NCBI RefSeq assembly: GCF_023746535.1
Contig: NZ_CP098747.1
Span: 1,680,364 to 1,744,363, forward strand
Source: Sneathiella marina
GTDB lineage: Bacteria; Pseudomonadota; Alphaproteobacteria; Sneathiellales; Sneathiellaceae
Length of the DNA stretch: 64,000 nucleotides
Reading direction: 5' to 3'
In this document: positions 5,127 to 29,727 of the stretch, in pieces
How positions within the stretch are numbered: position 1 is the stretch's first letter
Layout: the number at the start of each line of letters is the position of its first letter
The notes under the pieces: model-generated
Told to the model about the DNA's origin: nothing
Database searches by the model: none
Seen by the model: only the letters and a program-made list of their open reading frames with translations
Program-made: the position numbers and the translations under genes

Positions 5127-5141
5127 TTAACCGGGAATTAA
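5127..5141. promoter_or_regulatory. CtrA-type box (TTAA-N7-TTAA) before tadE
   Basis: TTAA (5127-5130), seven bases, TTAA (5138-5141) is a perfect match to the CtrA full-site consensus of Alphaproteobacteria. It ends 44 bp before the tadE ATG, where a promoter element would be. Two more perfect copies occur at other tad promoters in this window. Confidence 0.65.
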
Positions 5142-5185
5142 GGGCTTTCAGGTATGTTTTCACGTAATTAGTGGAAGGATATCCC

Positions 5186-5803
5186 ATGAAAAGACACGGT
5201 ATTATAAAACGCCAGGTCCTAAAAGCTTTTGCCCAGGAGACAAAAGGGGCAACTGCCGTCGAATTGGCTATGGTCTTACCGGTGCTGATCCTCGTTTTGA
5301 TCGGAATTATAGAGCTAAGCATAGGGATGTTTATCAATACCGTGGTTGAAGGTAGCCTGCGCGATGCGTCACGTCTCGGACTAACGGGGCAAATTCAGGA
5401 CGGTATCAGTAACGATCAAGCCATTGTAGATATGATCAACGAAGCCTCTTTGGGGTTGCTGGGTTTGACAACTGCCGATGTGACTACACTTGTTTACGAG
5501 AACTTTGCGTATGTCGGTCAAGGAGAAGATTTTACGGATTTGGATGGGGATGGCGTTTGGGATCCGGGCCCGTTTACCGCCCCTGATAGTACTGTTTATC
5601 CGGCAGGGGAGCCATGGGTTGAAGTAAATGGTAATGGCACCTACGACGCGGATTTCGGTACTGCAGGCCTCGGTGTTCAAGGGGATATTGTTCTCTATAC
5701 AGTTTCCTATAACTGGAATTTTCTAAGTGGCCAGGTTCTTCCCATTTTTGATGGCACTATCCCGATGGCTGCTTCTATTGTGGTGCAAAATGAACCTTAC
5801 TAA
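5186..5803 (+). CDS. tadE: TadE-like pseudopilin of the Tad pilus
   Basis: The start at 5186 follows a GGAAGGA ribosome binding site with 6-base spacing; an upstream GTG in frame has none. The 205-residue product has the TadE/TadG N-terminal signature: a short basic segment, G21 followed by ATAVELAMVLP, then one hydrophobic helix (about residues 27-50). TadE proteins are processed by the prepilin peptidase and act as minor pilins in Flp pilus assembly at the envelope. Residues 118-126 (DLDGDGVWD) and 146-156 (a VNGNGTYD motif) look like calcium-binding EF-hand/dockerin-type loops. Another TadE-like gene follows on the same strand, and a CtrA-type box precedes this one. Confidence 0.88.
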   Translation: MKRHGIIKRQVLKAFAQETKGATAVELAMVLPVLILVLIGIIELSIGMFINTVVEGSLRDASRLGLTGQIQDGISNDQAIVDMINEASLGLLGLTTADVTTLVYENFAYVGQGEDFTDLDGDGVWDPGPFTAPDSTVYPAGEPWVEVNGNGTYDADFGTAGLGVQGDIVLYTVSYNWNFLSGQVLPIFDGTIPMAASIVVQNEPY

Positions 5804-5862
5804 TAACAGTTGCTGGACGGGACGACGCATTCCTAGCACCCAAACTAAAAGTTGAGGTCAGT

Positions 5863-6492
5863 ATGAAAACCCTGCTCAGAAATCTCAAAGACCGGTCGGT
5901 AGACGGTATTTATTCTTTTATCCGCAACCGTCGTGGTGTCGCCATGGTGGAATTTGCCATGTTGCTTCCGCTTTTGATGCTTTTGGCCGCTGGGAGCTTC
6001 GAGGTGGCGCGTTATGCCTTGATAATGCAGAAACTGGACAGAATTGTCGCAACTCTATCTGACCTTGTAGCCCGGTCGGGCAACGAAACGATGACGGAAA
6101 CCGAAGTCTCAAATATCATGGATTCTGCGTTTTATATGGCGCAACCATTCGATATTACGGGCGATGCGATGATGATCCTCACGTCAGTCGAGGGGAGGGC
6201 CGGACAGGCGCCACAGATTTTAAGTCAACGTTCTTCGGGAACCGTTGCTGGCGCGGCCAGTACTATCGGCACAACAATTAATGGCAACGCAACACTGCCT
6301 TCTGCTTTTCCGGACGCAGGGTCTGGCGAGACATTGAACGACGGCGAGACACTTATCGTGGCTGAGCTCGTATACAACTATAGCCCATATCTTATAGGAA
6401 ACATTGGTTTTTTTGGGGATCAAGTATTCTATCGTAACGCTTTTTTCCGTCCACGATTTACCGACAAAATCGAGTTTCCGGTTTCTCCCTAA
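5863..6492 (+). CDS. Second TadE/TadG-like pseudopilin
   Basis: The 209-residue protein has the same architecture as its upstream neighbour. A basic N-terminus ends at RNRRGVAMVEFAMLLPL, the prepilin-like cleavage and hydrophobic helix signature with the conserved Glu, followed by a periplasmic domain. The start is supported by TGAGGTC upstream. The 59-bp gap to the preceding gene suggests co-transcription. It is likely a minor pseudopilin needed for Flp pilus biogenesis; TadF is the closest positional counterpart in other tad loci, but I cannot assign it firmly. No calcium-loop motif is seen in this copy. Confidence 0.85.
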   Translation: MKTLLRNLKDRSVDGIYSFIRNRRGVAMVEFAMLLPLLMLLAAGSFEVARYALIMQKLDRIVATLSDLVARSGNETMTETEVSNIMDSAFYMAQPFDITGDAMMILTSVEGRAGQAPQILSQRSSGTVAGAASTIGTTINGNATLPSAFPDAGSGETLNDGETLIVAELVYNYSPYLIGNIGFFGDQVFYRNAFFRPRFTDKIEFPVSP

Positions 6493-6741
6493 CCGGTCAA
6501 AATTCGTACACAAAATCTTCCAAATCATCGCGCTTTCCGCATGGTGGCTGCTTTACGCAAATGTTACCCGTGCTATGTCACTGAGAGGGTTGGGCGTATG
6601 TCCTTTTCAATGAGAAAGACCAAGTAGTTTTACTATAAGTACTACTGATGTGACGTCTGTTCACCAGATCGCTGGCCGAATAGACGATATGGTCCTAGCG
6701 ACAAGCCAGATGACCTTATTCTTTGACCTGTTAGTAATAAA
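6493..6741. other. Intergenic region between pseudopilin gene and tadG terminator
   Basis: About 250 bases between two convergent genes. A short ORF (6404-6613) overlaps the end of the pseudopilin gene in another frame and has no protein-like features. I see no RNA gene here and no intrinsic terminator for the plus-strand operon until the bidirectional hairpin at 6742-6768. Confidence 0.5.
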
Positions 6742-6768
6742 AAAAGCGACGGCAAAACCGTCGCTTTT
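6742..6768 (-). terminator. Intrinsic terminator after tadG (probably bidirectional)
   Basis: GCGACGG (6746-6752) pairs with CCGTCGC (6758-6764) around a 5-nt loop, and flanking A/T bases extend the stem. On the minus strand the stem is followed by seven T, an excellent intrinsic terminator 27 bp after the tadG stop. The plus-strand side has four T and could also stop transcription from the pseudopilin genes. Confidence 0.9.
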
Positions 6769-6795
6769 ATGACTATCCTGGATAGCCGTGAAGGG

Positions 6796-8448
6796 TTATT
6801 TCGAGATACGCAGGTTACTGAGCTCTTCACCGATCGTGTTAAAATCATCCAATAGATCCGCCGCTGTTGTTGCAACAAAGGCGTGTTTGGTAGAAGTTGC
6901 ACAGCCTGCAAGGTTACCGCTAACAAACTCAACCGTGTAAATTATTATGCCGGCACTTTTCATGGCAGTACATGTTGCCAGCATTTTCTGATCAATTTTA
7001 TCAGGGTAGCTGTCGCCATCGCTGGGCAAACTCGTATTCAGGAAACCCCTGTAATCATAATAGCTATGTGTTGGAGTTGTATCAAACCTTTCAGACCGGG
7101 CATATGCGTGATATCGGTCGTAGCTGCCCAGGGTGTTGATACCATCTGTCATTAGGATAACAACTTTATCCATATATGTTTCGAAATAGTTTAATGGCAA
7201 ACTAGTATATGGGACCTGTGGGGTGACCTTGGTGTTTGTAGGTAAATTTATCGTTGAACTACCATACCATTCACCATTCCATCTAGGGGAAAGAGCGCGC
7301 CAACCCCAGACGAGGCCAATATTAACAGCGGTTGCGCCGTCGGCAACCATGTCGTCTATTTTATCAGTTATGGTCGTTTTCTCAGCCGTGAGCGGTAATA
7401 TCACGGGCGGGCAATCCTCGTTGGGACCGCGGCTGGTGGTAATGGAGAAGTAATCCCCCCCTCTGCTTGACCGATATCTTTTCCAGTTATTTTTCATAAC
7501 ATTGTCATCGACATACTCACTAGACTCGTCTGGATCGTCGTAAAAAACATTATCCAGGTCTTTATGGTAGTCGTCCCAGAAATAGGGCACAAAGTCATTG
7601 TTAGGCGGATCATCTGACATATCAACGGTTCCGTTAATCAGATGGTCGCGCATTTCAATACAACCTTCCCAGCCATAGACGGTGTCATTGACACTGTCGC
7701 CAGTAACATCCCGGCCTAAGGCAGTATTCGAAGAATCTTGGGTAAATATACTATTGGTATTACTTGTCAGATTTGCGGGATAGCTGGACTTCAGCCAACC
7801 AATATTTTGTGGGCCAATGTTCACTGTTGTCGTATAGGGTACAATACTGACCCAAAGTTTATCATTGGTCTCGTTTCCACCATAAAGAATATCAATCAGA
7901 TTAGTTGACGCCTCTTTCAGCACGGAAAGACGTGTGCCCGTTCCTGATGAAGATGTCATTGATCCAGTGTTATCCAGCACTAAAACCAGTTCCATACCTC
8001 TGTTGTCTCGTTTAATTTCCGTATTGGCGCCCACAGTTAGTTCTGGTTGCTTGAGCACGTTCATAAAGGTTGTTGCCATGTCAGCGCGAACACTGAGTGT
8101 AATATTCTCTTTATCTGTATCCCAACTAATAGTTGACGAATCCATGGTGATTGCAGCCGTTCCCATATAGCCAGGCGGGAAGTTTGCATCGAAGTACTTT
8201 TGCGCATCTGCATATATTTCCGCATCTGGTGAAAATATGTTGCGTCCTGCCGCCAGGCCTGCAGCGTCAAGTGCTGTGGATAGCTTGGATTTCAATACAT
8301 AGGCGCGGCCAAGATCAACAGAGAGGCCGACAAAGCCGAATAAGGGAATAGCAAGAAACGCAATAATAACGGCGGACACGCCGTTGGTATTGCTACCAAA
8401 TTCCTTTAAAGATTGGCGAAACGAAGTGAAGCTAAATCTCTTGTTCAT
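6796..8448 (-). CDS. tadG: TadG-like pilus-assembly protein with von Willebrand factor A domain
   Basis: The 550-residue protein begins with the TadG N-terminus: a cytoplasmic segment, G23 followed by a hydrophobic stretch (about 24-45) and GLSVDLGRAYVLKSKL. From about residue 150 a von Willebrand A domain starts with the metal-ion-dependent adhesion motif DNTGSM (159-164). Its second MIDAS block is around the later ILMTDGINT. The region between contains a long insertion rich in Asp, Asn and Tyr. TadG proteins are anchored in the inner membrane with the rest in the periplasm, and the vWA form is thought to contact other Tad components. It is transcribed away from the flp operon. A 7/8 match to a CtrA box lies 56 bp upstream. 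Confidence 0.9.
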   Translation of the reverse strand: MNKRFSFTSFRQSLKEFGSNTNGVSAVIIAFLAIPLFGFVGLSVDLGRAYVLKSKLSTALDAAGLAAGRNIFSPDAEIYADAQKYFDANFPPGYMGTAAITMDSSTISWDTDKENITLSVRADMATTFMNVLKQPELTVGANTEIKRDNRGMELVLVLDNTGSMTSSSGTGTRLSVLKEASTNLIDILYGGNETNDKLWVSIVPYTTTVNIGPQNIGWLKSSYPANLTSNTNSIFTQDSSNTALGRDVTGDSVNDTVYGWEGCIEMRDHLINGTVDMSDDPPNNDFVPYFWDDYHKDLDNVFYDDPDESSEYVDDNVMKNNWKRYRSSRGGDYFSITTSRGPNEDCPPVILPLTAEKTTITDKIDDMVADGATAVNIGLVWGWRALSPRWNGEWYGSSTINLPTNTKVTPQVPYTSLPLNYFETYMDKVVILMTDGINTLGSYDRYHAYARSERFDTTPTHSYYDYRGFLNTSLPSDGDSYPDKIDQKMLATCTAMKSAGIIIYTVEFVSGNLAGCATSTKHAFVATTAADLLDDFNTIGEELSNLRISK

Positions 8449-8504
8449 GTTGACACCATATTCAAGATGACGAAATTAATTGCCAATAATATGTGCCTAA
8501 AACA

Positions 8505-8519
8505 TTAACGTTGCCTAAA
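8505..8519. promoter_or_regulatory. Imperfect CtrA-like site before tadG
   Basis: TTAA-N7-TAAA matches the TTAA-N7-TTAA consensus at 7 of 8 fixed bases. It is 56 bp from the tadG start, close to the 44 and 51 bp seen for two perfect sites at the tadE and cpaB promoters. A single-mismatch site is common by chance, so this is weak alone. Confidence 0.35.
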
Positions 8520-8725
8520 GAACTCTCTTAAATTTCTACAAAATTTTATCTTTACAATAAGTAGTAAAATACACATTCTATAATAAATACTCTTCTTTAT
8601 TATGTATATATAAGGATAAAATTATAATATTTGAATAATTTTAAATATAAGAATAATAAATAAAAAAACATGTAAAATTTTACGATATTTTTACTTCGAT
8701 AACCACTATAAAAATCCATTTCCTT

Positions 8726-8740
8726 TTAACTATTGATTAA
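8726..8740. promoter_or_regulatory. CtrA-type box (TTAA-N7-TTAA) upstream of flp
   Basis: TTAA (8726-8729), seven bases, TTAA (8737-8740) is a perfect consensus match. It ends 197 bp before the pilin ATG, so the transcript would have a long leader. In Caulobacter the equivalent pilA pilin gene is CtrA-activated, which makes this placement meaningful. Confidence 0.65.
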
Positions 8741-8903
8741 TCAATTCAGGTTTAAATGCTCAGCAAGGCGCGAGGCAAGACGAACTTGGAAAGCGCTTTA
8801 TATGTTAAGGGGCTTTGCAGGTTGCGCTTTGTTGCAGGCTGAAAAGTCTAGGTGCCGACAGGTTATTTACCTTGAGGGGCTGAAAACCAAGTTTTGTTTA
8901 GTG

Positions 8904-8920
8904 TCAGGAATCTTTCCTGA
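8904..8920 (+). other. Perfect hairpin adjoining the flp ribosome binding site
   Basis: TCAGGAA (8904-8910) and TTCCTGA (8914-8920) form a 7-bp stem with a 3-nt loop. It ends four bases before the TAGGAG Shine-Dalgarno of the first pilin gene. It may stabilise the pilin mRNA 5' region or be a translational control element. Confidence 0.5.
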
Positions 8921-8937
8921 GTATTAGGAGACTGAAA

Positions 8938-9156
8938 ATGATTAAAGTTATTCGTTCTTTCGTAAATGACGAGTCGGGTGCGACAGCCATTGAATATGGT
9001 CTTATTGCTGCGCTTGTTGCATTGGTTGGTGTTGTTGCCTTTACTGCTCTTGGCGATACAGTGACCAAAGCATTCAGTGATATTGCTGAAGCTCTGTGTA
9101 ATGGTACAGGTGGTAACTTCACACTGTCTAATACAGGTTCAAACAGCTGCTCATAA
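8938..9156 (+). CDS. flp: Flp/Fap-type major pilin, copy 1
   Basis: The 72-residue preprotein has a 14-residue leader ending in Gly14, followed by ATAIEYGLIAALVAL, the class IVb Flp pilin signature with Glu19 and Tyr20. Cleavage would fall after Gly14. The hydrophobic helix spans about residues 21-42, and a short Gly/Asn/Ser-rich tail ends with two cysteines (residues 53 and 71) that could form a disulfide. TAGGAG precedes the ATG by 7 bases. Flp is the structural subunit of the tight-adherence pilus. A strong hairpin follows this gene and separates it from the second pilin, suggesting that copy 1 is made in excess. Confidence 0.96.
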   Translation: MIKVIRSFVNDESGATAIEYGLIAALVALVGVVAFTALGDTVTKAFSDIAEALCNGTGGNFTLSNTGSNSCS

Positions 9157-9177
9157 GATTAGTTCTGTGAGAAATTC

Positions 9178-9207
9178 GGGAGGAGCGCTTTTTGTGGCGC
9201 TCCTCTC
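9178..9207 (+). other. Hairpin between the two flp pilin genes
   Basis: AGGAGCGC (9181-9188) and GCGCTCCT (9197-9204) pair perfectly, and the stem extends with mostly paired flanks to 9178 and 9207. No T-run follows, so it is more likely a 3' stabilising or partial termination structure than a full terminator. Such structures after the first gene usually raise its mRNA level above the rest of the operon. Confidence 0.65.
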
Positions 9208-9268
9208 ACTCTACAAATTCCATTCAAGTTATTGAAGTCAATGCTGTAGAAGAAATTTGGAGGTCGTT

Positions 9269-9487
9269 ATGTTTGAATTTACTCAGTTTTTTAAAGACGA
9301 TGCCGGAGCCACAGCAATAGAATACGGATTAATTGCGGCGCTCGTCGCTGTCGCCGGAGTAATAGCCTTTACCGCGACCGGAGATACGATCCTGACTTCA
9401 TTCACGAATATAACAGATGATTTCTGCACAGCGGTTGGCGGTAATTTCGCTATTACGAATACTGGAGAAAATAGCTGCGTTTTCTAG
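9269..9487 (+). CDS. Flp/Fap-type pilin, copy 2
   Basis: The start at 9269 is preceded by TGGAGG; a TTG 12 bases upstream lies inside that ribosome binding site and is not credible. The 72-residue product is a clear paralogue of the first pilin: leader ending at Gly13, then ATAIEYGLIAALVAV, and the same Gly/Asn-rich tail with two cysteines (FCTAVGGNFAITNTGENSC). The leader is more acidic and aromatic than in copy 1. It may be an alternative or minor subunit. It lies between flp copy 1 and the prepilin peptidase gene, presumably in the same operon. Confidence 0.94.
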   Translation: MFEFTQFFKDDAGATAIEYGLIAALVAVAGVIAFTATGDTILTSFTNITDDFCTAVGGNFAITNTGENSCVF

Positions 9488-9566
9488 ACCCCTGCCGGTT
9501 ACTGCTGGATCGGGTTCCTACGTAACCCTTTCAATATGAAAGAATTTCTTTTGAAATAGATTCCGA

Positions 9567-10076
9567 ATGATCCTTGTATATCACTTGATATTATTACTGC
9601 TGTTCACGCTAATCACATACGCAGCTCTATCAGATCTTCGAGATTTTACGATTCCCAATTTTGTAAGTATCACTATCGTAATACTTTACCCTCTGATGAT
9701 TATGACCAGCCCAGATAACATAGACTGGGTAGGCAGCTTGATTGTCGCTTTAAGTGTTCTGGTCATTGGATTTATCTTCTTCTCACTAAGATTGTTTGGC
9801 GCAGGCGATATTAAAATGATTGCCGCACTTTCTTTGTGGGCGGGGCCATCACTTGTCACAAATTTTTTGTTTGTAACTGTTATAGCAGGCGGGTTGTTGG
9901 TGCTTTTAATTATTTCTCGGGAGGGTTTGCGTCAAGCCTTCGAAGGAACGGGATTTGCTCGCGGCATCAGGTTTGCATTTCAATCAAAAACCCAAGTCCC
10001 CTACGGTGTTGCAGTCGCATTTGGGGGCATGAGCATCCTTATGTCATATGAAAAAATTATCGGCATAAGCACATGA
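9567..10076 (+). CDS. cpaA: Prepilin peptidase TadV/CpaA (A24 family)
   Basis: The 169-residue polytopic membrane protein is the short, methyltransferase-free form of type IV prepilin peptidase. The aspartyl protease residues are visible as Asp23 in SDLRDFTIPN and Asp81 in FGAGDIKM. Hydrophobic stretches account for about five membrane spans. It cleaves the leaders of Flp pilins and of the TadE-like pseudopilins at the cytoplasmic face. It follows the second pilin by 79 bp. A CtrA-type box and probable promoter lie between it and cpaB. Confidence 0.94.
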   Translation: MILVYHLILLLLFTLITYAALSDLRDFTIPNFVSITIVILYPLMIMTSPDNIDWVGSLIVALSVLVIGFIFFSLRLFGAGDIKMIAALSLWAGPSLVTNFLFVTVIAGGLLVLLIISREGLRQAFEGTGFARGIRFAFQSKTQVPYGVAVAFGGMSILMSYEKIIGIST

Positions 10077-10089
10077 AAAACTCCTAAAT

Positions 10090-10104
10090 TTAACCTGAAA
10101 TTAA
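10090..10104. promoter_or_regulatory. CtrA-type box (TTAA-N7-TTAA) before cpaB
   Basis: TTAA (10090-10093), seven bases, TTAA (10101-10104) is the third perfect consensus match at a tad promoter. It ends 51 bp before the cpaB ATG and falls in the only sizable gap of the cpa gene run, which suggests an internal promoter for the assembly-machine genes. Confidence 0.65.
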
Positions 10105-10155
10105 TGTCTTAGGGCGTAACGTAGTATTTAATTGCAACATAATGGATTTAGAACC

Positions 10156-11043
10156 ATGGCGCGAAAAATTTTATTAATCGTTTTTGCACTATTAATCACC
10201 GGATCAACCATTTTCTTTGTTCGTAGCTGGGTTGGTCAGCAGAAACAGCCCGTCGTAGAGACTGTGGAGACTGCTCCCGTAAAAGCGGATTATCAAATCC
10301 TCGTCGTTTCTACGGATCTTCCTGCAGGGACACTGGTTCAAGAGAAGCACCTTAAGTGGCAACCTTGGCCGGAATCAGATGATATTGAAGAAATATATGT
10401 AGTTGAAGAAGTGCGGACTTTGGAGGAGTTTGTCGGAACAGTTGTGCGTCAGGGGATCGGCAATGGTGAGCCAGTCACTGATTCGAGATTTATTAAGCCC
10501 GGTGAGCAGGGCTTTTTGGCCGCTGTATTGAATCCAGGTAAGCGCGCTATATCGATACCGATAAATGCAACGTCCGGTATCGCAGGGTTCGTGTTTCCGG
10601 GTGATCGGGTCGATGTAATCTTGACACATGGCCGGGTAACGGAATCTGAATCAGAAGAAGACGGAACAGCGACACGCCGGGCAAGTGAAACTATTCTCAC
10701 AAATGCCCGGGTAATTGCGATGGATCAGTCGACAAATGATCAGGAACAGCAAGCATCTGTACGCGGACTCGCAACGCTTGAAGTGACACCCAAACAGGTA
10801 GAAATTCTTACGGTTGCCAAGGAAATGGGACGATTGAGCTTATCGTTGCGGAGTTTGGCTCAGGTTACTGACGAGAGAAAAAGTAAAGATGGCAAACCGG
10901 TTTTCAAAAGGGAACGGGGCCGTGGTCATACATGGGATAGTGAAGCAAGTTCAATTGTTACGGGTCCCAGACGTACAGGAATTCCCACAACAGTCATCAA
11001 TGTCGTAAGAGCTGGCGATGCCAAGCAGAAGTTGTTCGACTAA
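10156..11043 (+). CDS. cpaB: CpaB/RcpC pilus-assembly protein (SAF domain)
   Basis: The start is placed at ATG 10156 (MARKILL), followed by one hydrophobic signal/anchor helix (about residues 4-22); an upstream in-frame TTG would add eight unlikely residues. The 295-residue product has a SAF-type domain beginning near VSTDLPAGTLV and continuing through AAVLNPGKRAISIPI, with GFVFPGDRVDVILT after it, which is the CpaB/RcpC signature. CpaB is a periplasmic partner of the outer-membrane secretin. A charged linker and basic tail close the protein. It begins a tightly packed run cpaB-cpaC-cpaD-cpaE-cpaF-tadB-tadC. Confidence 0.93.
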   Translation: MARKILLIVFALLITGSTIFFVRSWVGQQKQPVVETVETAPVKADYQILVVSTDLPAGTLVQEKHLKWQPWPESDDIEEIYVVEEVRTLEEFVGTVVRQGIGNGEPVTDSRFIKPGEQGFLAAVLNPGKRAISIPINATSGIAGFVFPGDRVDVILTHGRVTESESEEDGTATRRASETILTNARVIAMDQSTNDQEQQASVRGLATLEVTPKQVEILTVAKEMGRLSLSLRSLAQVTDERKSKDGKPVFKRERGRGHTWDSEASSIVTGPRRTGIPTTVINVVRAGDAKQKLFD

Positions 11044-11055
11044 GGAGTAGTTTCA

Positions 11056-12468
11056 ATGCTGACGAAATTAGTAAAACCAATAGCAGCGTTTGGGTTGGCC
11101 TTGTGTCTGGCTGTGATAACTCCGTCGATGTCTAATGCAGCGCAAGTTATTAATTCAAAAGGTGATATTCTTGCCTTAACGCTGAATTCAGGAAAACTGG
11201 TTCAACTGGATAAACCGGCAACATCCGTTTTTATCGGAAATCCGGAATTGGCAGATGTACAGGTTCAGTCACCAACCATCATTTATGTCTTTGGTAAGGG
11301 TACCGGAAGCACGAACTTATTTGCGTTGGATGCAAAGGGAAGAGTTCTTCTAAATTCTCCTGTAACGATTACCCATGATGTAACATCACTCAATGAGAGC
11401 TTGGAAAGGATTTCTGCTTACGGTGGTCTTCAAGCACGATCTACACCGACTGGAATTATGCTGACTGGTCGGGTAAGGACAGCTGCTGAAGCCGAAGATG
11501 CAAATCGCATGGCGGCTCTCTATCTTGGTGGGGGTACAATTTTCAATCGCATCTCGGTTGAGGGCGCATTGCAAGTAAATCTACGTGTTCGAGTCGCTGA
11601 AGTTGCGCGATCTGTTACAAAACGGTTCGGAGTAAACTGGGAAGTATTGGGAAATGTTGGTGATGCTGTATTGGGTTTCGCAAGAGGGCCTGATATTTTG
11701 GATGCTACGAATACAATTATACGACCGACTACTGGAACGCAAGGATATGCGGGATATCAGGATAGCAATGTAAACGTAAATGCTTTGGTTGATGCTCTGG
11801 ACGAGGAAGGGTTGCTTACCGTTCTGGCTGAGCCCAATCTGACCGCACTTTCTGGCGAATCAGCAGAATTCCTGGCAGGTGGTGAATTTCCAGTTCCTGT
11901 ACCCCAGGAAGATGGCGCGGTTACTGTTCAATACAAACCATTTGGTGTTTCGCTCGAATTTACGCCAACAGTTGTAGCGGATGATCGGATTAATTTAGTG
12001 GTGAAACCTGAAGTCAGTCAGCTTTCTTCAACTTCGGCTATCAATGTCGGTGGTTCTTTTATTCAGTCATTGTTGACGCGAAGGGCAGAAACAACAGTTG
12101 AACTTGCCAGCGGGCAAAGTTTTGCAATCGGCGGGCTGTTGAACAATGATGGCGATAACAATGTTTCCAAAACCCCATTTTTAGGCGAGATTCCTATTCT
12201 AGGTGCGTTATTCCGATCAGCTTCGTTCCAGCGAAATGAAACGGAATTGATTATTATTGTTACGCCATATCTGGTTAAGCCTTCTAACTCTCGTATTGCT
12301 GTTCCAACGGACGGATACATCCCTCCTAACGATAGCAATCTGTATGTGGAAGGTAAGAGCTTCCGGCCTACGCTGGGTAAAGATGCGCCTACAGCTCAGC
12401 CTTCCCCAACAACTGCTGCGAACAATGAAGTTAAACTCGTTGGTCCTGCTGGCTTTATTCTGGAGTAA
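11056..12468 (+). CDS. cpaC: CpaC/RcpA outer-membrane secretin of the Tad pilus
   Basis: The 470-residue protein starts with a Sec signal peptide (about residues 1-28, ending SNA) and an N-terminal domain typical of RcpA/CpaC (QLDKPATSVFIGNPELADV, then the VFGKGTGSTNLFALD block). A BON-like segment follows around residues 115-165. The C-terminal secretin domain contains VLAEPNLTALSGESAEFLAGG and later ELIIIVTPYLV, both diagnostic. It forms the outer-membrane ring through which the Flp pilus passes. A GGAG motif precedes the ATG, 12 bp after cpaB. Confidence 0.95.
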   Translation: MLTKLVKPIAAFGLALCLAVITPSMSNAAQVINSKGDILALTLNSGKLVQLDKPATSVFIGNPELADVQVQSPTIIYVFGKGTGSTNLFALDAKGRVLLNSPVTITHDVTSLNESLERISAYGGLQARSTPTGIMLTGRVRTAAEAEDANRMAALYLGGGTIFNRISVEGALQVNLRVRVAEVARSVTKRFGVNWEVLGNVGDAVLGFARGPDILDATNTIIRPTTGTQGYAGYQDSNVNVNALVDALDEEGLLTVLAEPNLTALSGESAEFLAGGEFPVPVPQEDGAVTVQYKPFGVSLEFTPTVVADDRINLVVKPEVSQLSSTSAINVGGSFIQSLLTRRAETTVELASGQSFAIGGLLNNDGDNNVSKTPFLGEIPILGALFRSASFQRNETELIIIVTPYLVKPSNSRIAVPTDGYIPPNDSNLYVEGKSFRPTLGKDAPTAQPSPTTAANNEVKLVGPAGFILE

Positions 12469-12473
12469 CCCAA

Positions 12474-13154
12474 ATGTATCGGAAATATCCAATGAAACGA
12501 TTAAATTTGATTAGTCTGGTTGCACTGTCTGCAGTCACAGTTGCTTGCTCACCAGTCGCTTTTGATCCAAGTTTTACTGAAACGGCAACGCCTCAAAATG
12601 CCCAACTGGAGAAGCAGATTAGCGTTGATAAGCTCACCCCGACAGTAATCGTTGAATTTGCTCCGGGCCGAGCTGGCATGAGTGATTTGTCGAAGGGGAA
12701 AATACTCGGGTTTCTAGAAGCTCAGGGAATTGGCTTTGGAGATGATGTCGAAGTCGAATTGCCGACTTTCGTCGGTAATGGTGGCCTTAATGAACAACGT
12801 TTTGGAGAAGTAAGCGAATTTCTACAGGATCGCGGATTTAAAGTGTTACCTGTCATCACAAAAGAGAATAGCCGTAACACATTGCGTGTCTATTTTACGA
12901 AATATGTGGCTACCGTAGACCCGGATTGTGAAAACGGTTGGTACCGACCAAAAGGCCTGGGGTATGAGAACCTGCCGTTGCCGAACATGGGATGTACAAC
13001 TGCAAATGCATTGGCAGGAATGATAGAAAACCCCAAAGATCTTGTTGATCCAAATGACTCGAGCCCGACCATTGGCGAGCGAGCAGCAAAGTCTGTTCAG
13101 AAATATCGTGGTGGTGCCGCAGGCGGCGGTTCAAGCAGCTCGGAAAGTAATTAA
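12474..13154 (+). CDS. cpaD: CpaD pilus-assembly lipoprotein
   Basis: The 226-residue protein begins five bases after the cpaC stop, with GGAG inside the end of cpaC as ribosome binding site. An in-frame ATG at 12492 would also give a proper signal peptide. The N-terminus ends in a lipobox (VTVAC, Cys25), so it should be an outer-membrane lipoprotein. The body matches CpaD: TVIVEFAPGRAGMS, then the NPKDLVDP segment and the Gly/Ser-rich tail. CpaD is thought to help localise or stabilise the secretin. Low-complexity GGAAGGGSSSS at the C-terminus is usual for the family. Confidence 0.9.
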   Translation: MYRKYPMKRLNLISLVALSAVTVACSPVAFDPSFTETATPQNAQLEKQISVDKLTPTVIVEFAPGRAGMSDLSKGKILGFLEAQGIGFGDDVEVELPTFVGNGGLNEQRFGEVSEFLQDRGFKVLPVITKENSRNTLRVYFTKYVATVDPDCENGWYRPKGLGYENLPLPNMGCTTANALAGMIENPKDLVDPNDSSPTIGERAAKSVQKYRGGAAGGGSSSSESN

Positions 13155-13168
13155 GGGAGACTAAACGC

Positions 13169-14413
13169 ATGGGCAACGCAGCATCAAATTTGAGCACATT
13201 ATTTGGAACACAAGTGTGCGAAGACTATATGGCCTTTGTAGATGACGAACATTCTTTGGGCGTGAGCCGTGAAGTATGTTCTGCTCTGGATTGGTCGGCC
13301 GACGCTAGTCAGGATGGTGGCATTACTGCTGCACTTGAGCGAATTGAGCCCGGAAACTCACCTAAAGTTGTACTGGCAGATATTAGCAAAAGTATCGATC
13401 CTGATGGCGATATTACACGCCTAATTCGGAAAGTTGGCCCCAATAACACATTGATAATTCTCGGGACATCAAATGACGTTAGCGTCTTTCGAAAGATGAT
13501 CGCGCTGGGGGCAAAGGATTACCTTGTAAAGCCGCTGACGATGGAAGTTCTAAAAGATGCTGTCGAAAATGTTGATAGACAGGCACAGGCATTTCAGGCG
13601 GCACAAAGCGGCCGCTTGACAGTTGTTGTAGGTGTGCGCGGCGGTGTCGGCGCAACGACTATTGCAACGAACATGGCTTGGATTATGGCAAATGAGGAGA
13701 AGTTGGGAACGGCATTGCTGGATCTTGATTTGCATTTCGGCACATCGACATTATCCCTTGATATTGAAACCGGTGGCGGTTTTCGGGAAGCCCTGGAAAA
13801 CCCGCATCGGTTGGACAAATTGTTCCTGGACAGCGCAATCGTGAAAGATGGCGACAAACTTGCAGTTCTGGGTACGGAAGAACCAATCGATGAAGTTATC
13901 GATTTAAGTGAAGAATCGATTGATACACTGATAGGCGAAATCAGCCAGGATTATAACCAGGTGATTGTTGATCTACCGCGCCACCTTCTTCCAACTCAAG
14001 GTGCGTTGCTGGCGTCTGCTGATACGGTGATTTTGATCTCAGACCAGTCACTGGCAGGAATTCGTGATATCAATCGAATTACTCAGGCAATGACATCTTT
14101 GCAAACGAAAGGTCGCATTCTTAAAATAGTTAGCCGTGTAGGTTCTGAGCGAGCCGCGCAGGTTTCCAAAGCGGATTTTGAGCGTGGATTGAATGAGAAA
14201 GTTGATTATTCAGTTCCGGAAGAGCCAAAAACGCTAACAATTTGCGCAAATGCGGGTAAAGCAATCGGAGAGGTTGCTGCCAAATCTTCAATCGCTAAAG
14301 TTCTACGCGAACTCTCAGCGGATGTTTCCGATTATACTGAGCCGCAAAAGAAGGGGCTTTTCAAGATGGTCCCTGGTGGCAAGAAGAAAAAAGAAGTGGG
14401 GCCTAAAGAGTGA
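13169..14413 (+). CDS. cpaE: CpaE/TadZ pilus-localising ATPase
   Basis: The 414-residue protein has two parts. Residues 1-140 form a receiver-like domain, with ALGAKDYLVKPL at 112-123 matching the receiver beta5-alpha5 region, but the acidic phosphorylation pocket is not clearly preserved. From about 150 a ParA/MinD-type ATPase domain starts with the atypical P-loop GVRGGVGATT (155-164), in which the usual signature lysine of the Mrp/MinD deviant Walker motif is replaced by Arg. TadZ/CpaE places the pilus machine at the pole. The tail is basic (GGKKKKEVG). Its stop overlaps the GTG start of cpaF. Confidence 0.94.
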   Translation: MGNAASNLSTLFGTQVCEDYMAFVDDEHSLGVSREVCSALDWSADASQDGGITAALERIEPGNSPKVVLADISKSIDPDGDITRLIRKVGPNNTLIILGTSNDVSVFRKMIALGAKDYLVKPLTMEVLKDAVENVDRQAQAFQAAQSGRLTVVVGVRGGVGATTIATNMAWIMANEEKLGTALLDLDLHFGTSTLSLDIETGGGFREALENPHRLDKLFLDSAIVKDGDKLAVLGTEEPIDEVIDLSEESIDTLIGEISQDYNQVIVDLPRHLLPTQGALLASADTVILISDQSLAGIRDINRITQAMTSLQTKGRILKIVSRVGSERAAQVSKADFERGLNEKVDYSVPEEPKTLTICANAGKAIGEVAAKSSIAKVLRELSADVSDYTEPQKKGLFKMVPGGKKKKEVGPKE

Positions 14414-16311
14414 GCTTGTGGCGATCATCTTCCTCTGACAGTAAAGTCAAACCTGTTCCCACCTTACCTAGTGCTGCGGGACCACAGGCGGCTGACCTTT
14501 TGGCAAAATACATGCCGGAAGTTCGGGAAACGCTTCTGCCAAACCTGTCGGCAGACGAAAACCGTTCTGTTGTAGCCCAACAGGTGAAAACGTTTGTTCG
14601 TGACGCAATGTCGCGGGAAAAAATTCAACTGAATGTGCTCGAGCAACGTACTTTGGTCAATGACTTGACGGTGGGCTTGTGGTCAGAAATAGAGAAAAAG
14701 CAGACTACGAACGGTACAACCCCACCAAGACCGGCTGAGCCTTCCAATGAATTGGATCAATCAAATTTTTCTGGCGCTGCAGAAGAAGCCAATGCACTGG
14801 ATAACACCAAAATTGTTGAAGAAGGCGTCACTGTTTTTGGCGCGGACCCTGTTGCTCCAGCAGAGGTTACTGCTGAGTTCGAGCAACCACAGACTCTAGA
14901 CTCGTTCCAGGATACTGCTTCCGGTGACGACGAAGAGTTCAGCGAACCGGTTGTTCCTTTGGCTAAAAGTGTGGAAGATAAAGAAGAAGAGGATGATAAT
15001 TCCTCAGAAGTTTTCAATTTATCTATGGCACCTGAAACGACGGGCGTTAAAATTAATGCTCATCTAGAAGGCATAAAATCAATTGTCCAGCCGTTATTGA
15101 TGGAAAGAATTGATATCAGTGCCGCTGTTACAATGGATAGGCTGGATCTCGCCCGCGATATATCTGATATTATTACGGATATTTTGATCGAGGAACGCAT
15201 TCAGTTAAATCAGCGTGAGCAACGTGAATTAACTGAAAGTTTGATGCATGACATGCTCGGTTTGGGGCCGCTCGAACCATTGCTAGCTGACGATGGCATA
15301 ACGGATATTATGGTCAATGGCCCAAAACAGGTGTTTATCGAAAAAGAAGGCAAGCTTGTACTATCCGATTGCCAGTTCCGGGATAACGCGCATGTTCTGA
15401 GTGTTGCAAGTCGTATTGTTAGTCACGTTGGGCGCCGTGTCGATGAAACCAGTCCACTGGTTGATGCTCGTCTGGCAGACGGCAGTCGTGTCAATATCAT
15501 CATTCCGCCATTGGCCATCGATGGGCCATCCATTTCTATACGTAAGTTTGCGAAGCAGAAGATTACGCTGGATGTAATGGAGAGGACGAAGAATTTGTCG
15601 CCTGCGTCGGCAACCGTTTTGCGTGTCGCCGGTAGATGTCGACTAAATATTTTAATTTCGGGTGGTACGGGCTCTGGTAAAACCACGATGCTTAACGCCA
15701 TATCTCAGCTAATCGATCCTGGTGAACGTATTGTCACTATTGAAGACGCAGCGGAACTCCAATTACAGCAACCTCATGTAGTAAGGTTGGAAACACGATC
15801 TGCAAATCTTGAAGGTGGCGGGGAAATCTCCATGCGAGATCTTCTAAAGAACGCCCTGCGTATGCGTCCAGATAGGATTATTCTTGGCGAGATTCGTGGC
15901 AGTGAAGCGATTGACATGCTGCAGGCAATGAATACCGGCCATGATGGGTCGTTATCGACAATTCATGCCAACCGTCCGAGAGAGGCCTTAACGCGGCTGG
16001 AAAATATGGTTGGTATGTCGAGCGTGAATTTGCCGGCGAAGGCAGTAAGAACTCAGATAGCCTCTGCGATTGATCTAATCGTTCAGATTAGCCGGATGCG
16101 AGACGGTGTACGTCGTGTGACCTATATCTCTGAAGTTGTAGGTATGGAAGAAGATGTCATCACTATGCAAGACCTCTTCTGGTATGAGTTCCACGGGGAA
16201 GATAAAGGTGGCCGGTTGCTTGGTGATTTCAAATCTACGGGGCTACGTCCTCATTTTGCGCCGCGCGCCGCCTATTTCGGACTAGAGAAAATGCTGTTGG
16301 GAGCCGTATGA
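14410..16311 (+). CDS. cpaF: CpaF/TadA assembly ATPase with duplicated N-terminal segment
   Basis: The GTG start overlaps the cpaE stop (GTGA). At 633 residues it is well above the 430-500 usual for CpaF/TadA. The C-terminal two thirds are a standard secretion ATPase: the N-domain with [11 protein letters not shown] (284-293), Walker [10 protein letters not shown] (418-426), the Asp box region, Walker B around RIILGEIRG, and [11 protein letters not shown]. The extra length is N-terminal. Residues 34-91 resemble residues 222-283, with the core [11 protein letters not shown] (70-80) matching [11 protein letters not shown] (262-272) at 8 of 11 positions. An acidic Glu/Asp/Ser/Pro-rich linker (about 92-215) joins them. 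It powers Flp pilus polymerisation at the inner membrane. Confidence 0.95.
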
Positions 16312-17318
16312 TGTTGGGAACTTCCGGACCTATCGATCAATTGACCGTCATGCTCGTTGTCGGCGGTGCGACATTGTTAATTTCGCTTCTATTAGTATTT
16401 GCGTTTGCGGGCGGATCCGATCATTCCTCGAGCTCACGTAGAAGATTAACAGAAATCAGTCAGGGCCAGAAAACAACCGGCAAAACCAAAGCGCGTGAAA
16501 CGGCCCGGCGCTCACAGGAAACCAGCGGCATCAAAATTATCGATTTGCTGCTCAAAAAACTGATTCCCAATCCAGATCTACTGCGAAGCAGACTGGAAAA
16601 AACAGGGCGCAAGATTTCAATCGCACAATATTCTTCTATTGCTGTGGTATTAGCGCTGATTGTAACAGTCTTGACTCACCTGCTTTATGACGTGTCGTTA
16701 TTTCTAGCCATTCCAACGGGCCTATTTTGCGGATTGTTTTTCCCGCATGTAATCGTCGGCTTTCTTGGCAAACGCCGTATCAATAAATTCATGAAAACCT
16801 TTCCGGAGGCAATTGAGCTTTTGTGCCGTGGCCTGCGGGCAGGTCTACCGATAAGTGAAGCAATTGTAACCGTTGGAAATGATGCCCCAGATCCAGTTGG
16901 TAAGGAATTTCGAGGCGTTGCTGACGCGATGCGTGTTGGCCAGAGCATCGAGCAAGGGCTTTGGGATGTCGCCAGCCGAATTGATTTACCGGATTTCAAA
17001 TTCTTGATCATCGCTATTTCCATTCAACGGGAAACAGGGGGTAACCTGGCAGAAACACTCGCTGGTCTTGCCAATACATTGCGTAAACGCCGGCAAATCA
17101 AACTCAAGATTAAAGCGATGTCCTCTGAAGCACGTGCTAGTGCCTGGATTATAGGATCACTGCCTTTTATCATGTTTGTTTTACTTTGGTTTGCCAATGA
17201 TGCCTATGTCGGTACGTTGATCGAAGATCCGAGGGGCGCATATATGATCGGCGCCGGTCTAACAATGATCGGAACCGGGTGCGCTGTTATGGCTAAAATG
17301 GTCAGGTTTGAAATTTAG
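16308..17318 (+). CDS. tadB: TadB inner-membrane platform protein
   Basis: The ATG overlaps the cpaF stop (ATGA). The 336-residue product has an N-terminal membrane helix (about 10-30), a basic cytoplasmic segment, two further helices near residues 105-150, and a T2SSF domain (KTFPEAIELLCRGLRAGLPISEAI to RETGGNLAETLAGLANTLRKR), followed by two C-terminal helices. TadB pairs with TadC as the GspF/PilC-like platform that CpaF drives. The gene order cpaF-tadB-tadC is the usual one. Confidence 0.94.
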   Translation: MMLGTSGPIDQLTVMLVVGGATLLISLLLVFAFAGGSDHSSSSRRRLTEISQGQKTTGKTKARETARRSQETSGIKIIDLLLKKLIPNPDLLRSRLEKTGRKISIAQYSSIAVVLALIVTVLTHLLYDVSLFLAIPTGLFCGLFFPHVIVGFLGKRRINKFMKTFPEAIELLCRGLRAGLPISEAIVTVGNDAPDPVGKEFRGVADAMRVGQSIEQGLWDVASRIDLPDFKFLIIAISIQRETGGNLAETLAGLANTLRKRRQIKLKIKAMSSEARASAWIIGSLPFIMFVLLWFANDAYVGTLIEDPRGAYMIGAGLTMIGTGCAVMAKMVRFEI

Positions 17319-17326
17319 GAGGCAAC

Positions 17327-18301
17327 ATGGTTGATCTAGTTAGCCTATTACCAGATTTTCTAAGGTCTGAGGACATGTTGGCGCTTATTGCTGGCGGTGC
17401 GTCGCTGGCTGTTGTCCTGATGATGTGGAGGGCATTTCTTGTCAAAGATGCTTTGCCCGGGAGGATTAAAAGCCTTGAAAAGAGGCGGACAGCTCTTAAA
17501 GAGAACATAGCCAACGAGACTAAACAGCGAAGCAAGTTGATTGTGCGCGAAAACCTCATGCATCGCGTCGTGCAAAAAATGCAGTTGATGCGGGGGGAAC
17601 GTGCCCGCGTCATGGCAGCGAAACTTGCTCAAGGCGGCTGGCGCTCAAAAGATGCGCTGGTCACATATCTCTTTGCAAAAATATCCTTGCCATTGTTGTT
17701 CACAAGTCTTGCTTTGATGTATTTATTGGGCACCAATCCTTGGGATTGGGATGTTCTTGTTTGTATTCTTGCGTCAATTGGCGCCGGCTTTATTGGATAT
17801 CTCCTTCCGGATACGCTTGTCAAAAACAAGGTATCGAAAAGATATGAAGCAATTCGCAAAACGCTGCCGGATGCGCTCGATCTTTTGGTTATTTGTACGG
17901 AAGCTGGATTGAACCTTGATAGTGGCCTTGACAGAGTGTGTCGTGAAGTTGCGAATTCAGCACCAGAGCTGGCCGACGAATTTGGATTAACCTCGATTGA
18001 ACTGGGTTTTCTACCAGATCGAAAGCAGGCACTTGGAAACCTTGCAAGCCGGGTTGATTTTCAGGCTATGACAACACTTGTCAATACTCTGCTCCAAACA
18101 GAAAAATATGGTACCCCTTTGGCTGTTGCCTTGCGTGTACTAGCGGCAGAAATGCGTGAAGAGCGTCTGATGAAAGCAGAGGAAAAAGCTGCTCGTCTAC
18201 CGGCCATTATGACGGTTCCAATGATCGTCTTTATTTTGCCCGCTTTGTTTATTGTTCTTATCGGACCAGCCGTCTTGCGCGCTATCGACGCCTTCAACTA
18301 A
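17327..18301 (+). CDS. tadC: TadC inner-membrane platform protein
   Basis: The 324-residue protein starts after an excellent AGGAGG ribosome binding site, 8 bases past the tadB stop. It has an N-terminal helix (about 19-38), a cytoplasmic part, helices at about 120-160, and the T2SSF domain from RKTLPDALDLLVICTEAGLNLDSGLDRV to TLLQTEKYGTPLAVALRVLA, then a C-terminal helix. It is the second platform protein of the Tad system and the last gene of this operon. A 437-bp gap without recognisable genes follows, before a terminator shared with the convergent tadD. Confidence 0.94.
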   Translation: MVDLVSLLPDFLRSEDMLALIAGGASLAVVLMMWRAFLVKDALPGRIKSLEKRRTALKENIANETKQRSKLIVRENLMHRVVQKMQLMRGERARVMAAKLAQGGWRSKDALVTYLFAKISLPLLFTSLALMYLLGTNPWDWDVLVCILASIGAGFIGYLLPDTLVKNKVSKRYEAIRKTLPDALDLLVICTEAGLNLDSGLDRVCREVANSAPELADEFGLTSIELGFLPDRKQALGNLASRVDFQAMTTLVNTLLQTEKYGTPLAVALRVLAAEMREERLMKAEEKAARLPAIMTVPMIVFILPALFIVLIGPAVLRAIDAFN

Positions 18302-29046: not shown

Positions 29047-29727
29047 ATGAAGATAATGGTTGTCGAAGATGAGCCTGCCATGGTTGAGCTCCTTCAGTAT
29101 AATCTGGAAAGCGAAGGTTTCGACGTTGTTTCTGCCACAGATGGCGAAGAAGCATTGCTGGTTTTGGAAGAGGAAAAACCGGAGATGCTGCTGTTGGACT
29201 GGATGATCCCGAAAATCTCAGGTATCGAGATTTGCCGGCGGCTACGACGAGATCCCGTTCACAGAAATCTGCCGGTGATTATCATTACCGCCAGGGGAGA
29301 GGAAACGGACCGTATTCGTGGCCTCGATGTTGGGGCAGACGACTATGTGTCAAAGCCGTTTTCACCGGCCGAGCTGATGGCTCGAGTTCGCGCGGTCCTT
29401 CGGCGTAATAATCCGAATGCTGAAAGTGATACCCTGACTATCGCCGACATAATATTGGACTTGGTTGCGTATAAAGTCAGCCGGGCGGGGCGGGAACTGC
29501 ATTTGGGACCAACAGAGTTCAAATTATTGCGGTTCTTTATGGAACGTCCGGGCCGTGTTCTTTCTCGGGAGCAGCTTCTTGACGGTGTTTGGGGGCAAAA
29601 TGTGTATGTCGAGGACCGTACTGTGGATGTCCATATTCGCCGATTGAGAAAAGCACTCAATGGTGCAGGAGAGGTGGATTTAATAAGAACAGTAAGAGCG
29701 GTGGGCTATTGCCTTGAACGAAGCTGA
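29047..29727 (+). CDS. phoB: PhoB phosphate-regulon response regulator
   Basis: The 226-residue OmpR-class regulator has a receiver domain with the acidic pair in VVEDEP (7-9), the phosphoacceptor Asp51 in LLLDWMIP and Lys in VSKPFSP. A winged-helix DNA-binding domain follows (about 128-226) with LGPTEFKLLRFFMERPGRVLSREQLLD and VDVHIRRLRKAL. Phospho-PhoB should bind the Pho box at 23710-23738 and drive the pst operon. The end of the gene lies inside a perfect hairpin shared with the convergent mlaC end. Confidence 0.96.
   Translation: MKIMVVEDEPAMVELLQYNLESEGFDVVSATDGEEALLVLEEEKPEMLLLDWMIPKISGIEICRRLRRDPVHRNLPVIIITARGEETDRIRGLDVGADDYVSKPFSPAELMARVRAVLRRNNPNAESDTLTIADIILDLVAYKVSRAGRELHLGPTEFKLLRFFMERPGRVLSREQLLDGVWGQNVYVEDRTVDVHIRRLRKALNGAGEVDLIRTVRAVGYCLERS

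Follow-up and report, generated by a model that had tools for sequence, protein, structure and literature searches.

Candidate CtrA boxes at each transcription unit of a Tad pilus locus in the genus Sneathiella

The Tad pilus genes of Sneathiella marina that lie in the stretch of DNA analysed here (the window, 64 kb) are probably activated by CtrA as four separate units, tadE1-tadE2, tadG, flp1-flp2 (probably with cpaA) and cpaB-tadC, each through a box-bearing sigma-70-type promoter of its own; from sequence comparison we assign this reading a probability of roughly 0.88. The mechanism itself is already known, and Sneathiella offers a clean, genus-wide case of it, with candidate CtrA boxes at every Tad unit. 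The identity of the locus as a Tad (Flp type IVb) system follows from Pfam matches to a Flp pilin, a prepilin peptidase, CpaB/RcpC, a secretin, the TadA ATPase, TadC and TadE/G. Within the cpaB-tadC unit, cpaB, cpaC, cpaE, tadA and tadC were assigned by Pfam, and cpaD and tadB by gene order together with tblastn similarity to a second Tad locus of the same genome. The genes are as follows.

5186..5803, + strand: tadE1, TadE-like pseudopilin (Pfam PF07811)
5863..6492, + strand: tadE2, TadE-like, shortly 3' of tadE1 and co-directional (Pfam PF07811)
6796..8448, - strand: tadG-like gene (Pfam PF13400, Tad)
8938..9156, + strand: flp1 pilin (Pfam PF04964, Flp_Fap)
9260..9487, + strand: flp2 pilin, by tblastn similarity to flp1, with an inferred start
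9567..10076, + strand: cpaA prepilin peptidase (Pfam PF01478)
10156..18301, + strand: cpaB, cpaC, cpaD, cpaE, tadA, tadB and tadC, co-directional and nearly contiguous gene calls

Four candidate CtrA boxes of the form TTAA-N7-TTAA accompany these genes, one of them with a mismatch.

5127..5141, + strand: box TTAACCGGGAATTAA, tadE1-tadE2 promoter; exact in 16 of 16 genomes with tadE1 upstream sequence
8505..8519, - strand: box TTTAGGCAACGTTAA with one mismatch, at the tadG promoter; not noted in the preliminary description
8726..8740, + strand: box TTAACTATTGATTAA, flp promoter; all 15 bases invariant in 21 of 21 genomes
10090..10104, + strand: box TTAACCTGAAATTAA, cpaB-tadC promoter; exact in 21 of 21 genomes

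The preliminary description of this DNA had reported the three forward-strand boxes. All three are exact where it placed them, and a motif scan finds no other exact site in the 64-kb window. The distances it gave to the start codons, 44 bp at tadE1 (5186) and 51 bp at cpaB (10156), are correct by sequence, and the corresponding gap at flp1 (8938) is 197 bp. Its argument that three such sites exceed chance needs correction. The raw count is weak evidence and not above chance, with 1.46 sites expected from shuffles of the window and at least three found in 19 of 100 of them, and the AT-rich flp gap could yield one box by chance. These are the grounds on which the boxes might be taken for chance matches in AT-rich DNA. 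Stronger evidence is their clustering: the genome, a single contig of 4.07 Mb, contains 58 sites, a density that predicts 0.07 for the 5-kb stretch containing all three, and the Poisson probability of at least three is 6e-5, a value calculated post hoc.

The decisive evidence for the boxes is their conservation across 16-21 related genomes per promoter. Upstream regions were compared for cpaB orthologues from 21 Sneathiella genomes, that of S. marina included, with start codons estimated in some relatives, including some of those for tadE1. The tadE1 box lies at about -42 to -68 across genomes, the flp1 box at -190 to -218 and the cpaB box at -63 to -66, the last two in 21 of 21. Identity is 100% in the half-site columns, save that at tadG 7 of the 8 positions are invariant, and the 60 flanking columns average 57-65%; at tadE1, invariant half-sites stand among flanks with a mean identity of 60%. 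Because the species are related and not independent, such genome counts overstate the number of independent observations. Nevertheless, exact conservation amid flanks only about 60% identical already refutes the chance explanation, which is further opposed by the fixed offset between each box and its -10-like element (see below) and retains practically no probability. The cpaB box is kept even in relatives without a detectable cpaA between flp2 and cpaB, an interval in which tblastn gave no cpaA match in many of the relatives.

The fourth box belongs to the divergent tadG gene, and with it no apparent transcription unit of the locus is without one. In S. marina its first base is 71 bp before the tadG start codon, and it is found at -68 to -74 in 20 of 20 genomes, as an exact TTAA-N7-TTAA in 8 relatives and as TTTA-N7-TTAA in 12 genomes. 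The flp box is distinct in another respect, since its 7-base spacer is invariant in 21 of 21 genomes, unlike those of the other three boxes, so some further constraint must act there. A palindrome spanning this box, ATTGATTAATCAAT, was considered and rejected, being absent as a conserved feature in the relatives. Directly after the box, a further one-mismatch site begins at 8741.

Downstream of the boxes, -10-like elements occur at nearly constant distances.

5153..5158, + strand: -10-like TATGTT, 11 bp past the tadE box; TANNNT at offset 11 in 16 of 16 genomes
8752..8757, + strand: -10-like TTAAAT, 11 bp past the flp box, read from the sequence
10117..10122, + strand: -10-like TAACGT, 12 bp past the cpaB box; TANNNT at offset 12 in 15 of 21 genomes

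At tadE, the other offsets tested give TANNNT in none or one of the genomes, and at cpaB few or none have it at offsets other than 12. The flp element at offset 11 reads TTAAAT in one clade and CAAATT in the other, and at tadG the looser NANNNT is found at offset 11 in 14 of 20 genomes. Both match TANNNT poorly, and support for them is weaker than at tadE and cpaB. Allowing for a hexamer so placed and a gap of 6-7 bp after it, transcription is predicted to begin about 39 nt from the box, counted from its first base. In Caulobacter, activated promoters carry full CtrA motifs near -35, one of which activates at -39 and represses at -14 (PMC4287350). Judged by the predicted starts, the geometry of the Sneathiella boxes would be that of activation, with the site over the -35 region. 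Phosphorylated CtrA would thus bind TTAA-N7-TTAA across -35 and activate transcription, and the -10 element 11-12 bp after the box would direct initiation at the predicted distance of about 39 nt, as at a Caulobacter promoter described as CtrA-activated. As the boxes are shared by all units, one regulator would switch on the pilin, the minor pilins and the machine together, and with them flagellar genes, ctrA itself, mipZ and popZ.

Some of the boxes might instead repress or delay transcription, as upstream sites do at Caulobacter pilA, where extra CtrA sites have both effects (PMC11264516); the additional one-mismatch site adjoining the flp box would fit this. However, the right half of each conserved box is 11-12 bp from the -10-like element, which is the activating position (PMC4287350), and repression is considered unlikely. 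An explanation of the cpaB promoter through GcrA and CcrM was rejected, as GANTC is absent from the tadE and cpaB promoters of S. marina. In one clade, GAATC, which fits the CcrM-type GANTC pattern, does lie close to where cpaB transcription is predicted to start; the S. marina promoter lacks it, and added GcrA/CcrM control of cpaB is possible in that clade.

The regulator itself is encoded in the genome. A check for ctrA, proposed in the preliminary description, returned a match to the NCBIfam equivalog NF045991 at 417.6 bits (cut-off 350). The protein is 78% identical to an approximate Caulobacter CtrA query; the NCBIfam assignment is independent of that query. CtrA was found in 23 of 25 Sneathiella genomes and in 18 of 18 of good quality, and ChpT, GcrA and SciP (DUF1153) are likewise encoded in S. 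marina. Among the matches listed, 53 of the 58 genomic N7 sites were placed relative to genes by a simple gene-calling script, without curated annotation. Of these, 38 of 53 are at most 250 bp upstream of a gene, compared to 14 of 37 sites with the control spacers N6 and N8 (Fisher P 0.0014), and restriction to TTAAC gives 18 of 24 against the same controls (P 0.005). The genome-wide scan that had been suggested thus bears out enrichment at promoters, whereas the N7 total is no higher than that of N8. A genome-wide excess of the motif was dropped as an argument: N7 sites are as numerous as N8 sites, and a reversed control pattern is more frequent than TTAA-N7-TTAA. The enriched property of the N7 sites is their position at promoters, not their number.

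The genes that carry the box elsewhere point in the same direction. TTAA-N7-TTAA occurs 41 bp before ctrA, which is divergent from a gene for a FliI-type ATPase. An exact match is found there in 14 of 23 genomes, at -54 to -58, and at popZ in 11 of about 18. Boxes also precede the genes for FliN, an FlgC-like rod protein, FlaG, MipZ, PopZ, a lytic transglycosylase and a CHASE2 protein, and the presence of one box at ctrA, at flagellar genes (FliN, FlgC-like, FlaG) and at cell-division genes (MipZ, PopZ) is the pattern of a CtrA regulon. In Caulobacter, ctrA, mipZ and flagellar genes are among the CtrA targets (PMC4287350). The sites could in principle serve a different OmpR-family regulator whose target is similar, since other OmpR-type regulators are encoded, one of them within the window (about 29047-29712, with 33% identity to CtrA and at a distance of about 19 kb). 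This is most improbable given that the motif is the exact CtrA consensus, including TTAAC, that it precedes ctrA and genes of CtrA regulons elsewhere, and that the Sneathiella CtrA is an equivalog match. Control by CtrA, including the independent cpaB-tadC promoter that had been proposed, is therefore strongly supported by the presence of ctrA and by conserved boxes in activator geometry, with further backing from the boxes before ctrA, mipZ, popZ and flagellar genes and from the enrichment of N7 sites at promoters. Three genes for DUF2336 proteins each have TTAA-N7-TTAA 56-170 bp upstream, which makes DUF2336 a candidate for an uncharacterised CtrA-linked family.

We infer that CtrA binds and activates the Tad promoters and that they follow the cell cycle, the timing being drawn from the role of CtrA elsewhere. 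A literature search on CtrA in Sneathiella returned nothing on the subject and no timing data for the genus. Alternatively, CtrA could control the units without timing them to the cell cycle, serving mainly as a switch for motility or attachment or in response to growth phase, as it does in Rhodobacterales. In Dinoroseobacter shibae, CtrA acts within quorum sensing, and sites for it are predicted at Tad as well as flagellar genes (PMC6473078); several Sneathiella sites sit before motility genes. Against such a switch, boxes also stand before ctrA itself, mipZ and popZ, and the presence of GcrA, SciP and ChpT is closer to the Caulobacter circuit, although this is a presence of genes and not a measure of timing. 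A switch is regarded as the less probable arrangement, albeit a substantial competitor to cell-cycle timing.

The extent of the regulon within Tad genes is narrower than first suggested. The preliminary description had the whole Tad apparatus under CtrA, and this applies to the window locus, with its four units and one degenerate box, but not to a second Tad locus at about 1,799,900-1,811,400 of the genome. The latter contains co-directional homologues of cpaA, cpaB, cpaC, cpaE, tadA, tadB, tadC and tadG; the genome scan found no exact TTAA-N7-TTAA there, and the only nearby intergenic one-mismatch site precedes its last gene. Linkage to CtrA would thus belong to the window locus and not to Tad genes generally, and the second locus provides a built-in control for the effect of that linkage. 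Outside the genus, no box was found at cpaB in two sets of 8 and 10 loci, and three of these loci have boxes 58-68 bp before flp. From this small sample, the flp box may be ancestral, with the tadE, tadG and cpaB boxes added on the Sneathiella line.

That CtrA controls pilin genes is already established for Caulobacter (PMC11264516) and Sinorhizobium (PMC4433202). In Caulobacter crescentus, the regulator and the motif at -35 are the same as proposed here, and the pilin promoter is CtrA-activated; the differences are that pilA there has four CtrA sites and that GcrA is described as the inducer of the machine genes (PMC11264516), whereas Sneathiella has one conserved box at each of four units and tadE and cpaB promoters that lack GANTC. 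CtrA ChIP signal is nevertheless reported at Caulobacter cpaA and cpaB too (PMC6169604), and cpaB of Brevundimonas is not GcrA-regulated (PMC7987155). In Hyphomonas neptunium, ChIP-seq gave the motif TTAA-N7-TTAAC, and 14 genes of pili-mediated adhesion belong to the direct CtrA regulon (PMC7200025). Dinoroseobacter shibae likewise has a predicted CtrA site at the Tad gene Dshi_1127, although this is the single Tad site named and CtrA is tied there to quorum sensing (PMC6473078). In Sinorhizobium meliloti, CtrA binds the pilA1 pilin promoter by ChIP, and pilA1 is the only pilus gene named in the portion of that report drawn on here (PMC4433202). With the Sneathiella locus, one more genus, which has cultured species, would join those whose Tad pili are under CtrA. 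A single regulator would govern the pilin, the minor pilins and the machine, a task that in Caulobacter is described as shared by GcrA and CtrA.

The flp box is about 200 bp from flp in Sneathiella, and the sequence that follows the predicted start is conserved.

8764..8937, + strand: predicted structured 5' leader RNA of flp1, about 175 nt, its 5' end a prediction

This leader is likely structured. All 21 genomes conserve it, a hairpin lies directly 5' of the ribosome-binding site, and its fold has a z-score of -2.9. RNAalifold over all 21 leaders gives little structure, owing to the poor alignment between the two clades, and the helices were assessed on separate clade alignments. In the six-genome clade there are four helices, with 93% of cells paired and five pairs changed on both sides; only 4 of 500 shuffles reached the covariation score, and slid controls were 33-52% paired. 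The larger clade mostly keeps the helices and displays little covariation. No Rfam family matches the leader at gathering score, and one weak hit below the cut-off lies outside it. By DNA search of 61 genomes, which diverged copies would escape, it was found only in Sneathiella. Any regulatory role is a guess. That this is a new, hairpin-ended leader controlling pilin translation or stability, coupled to an invariant CtrA promoter, is a tentative proposal, to which we give slightly less than an even chance. The leader gives RNA studies a concrete target. If the proposal is true, pilin output would be set at two levels.
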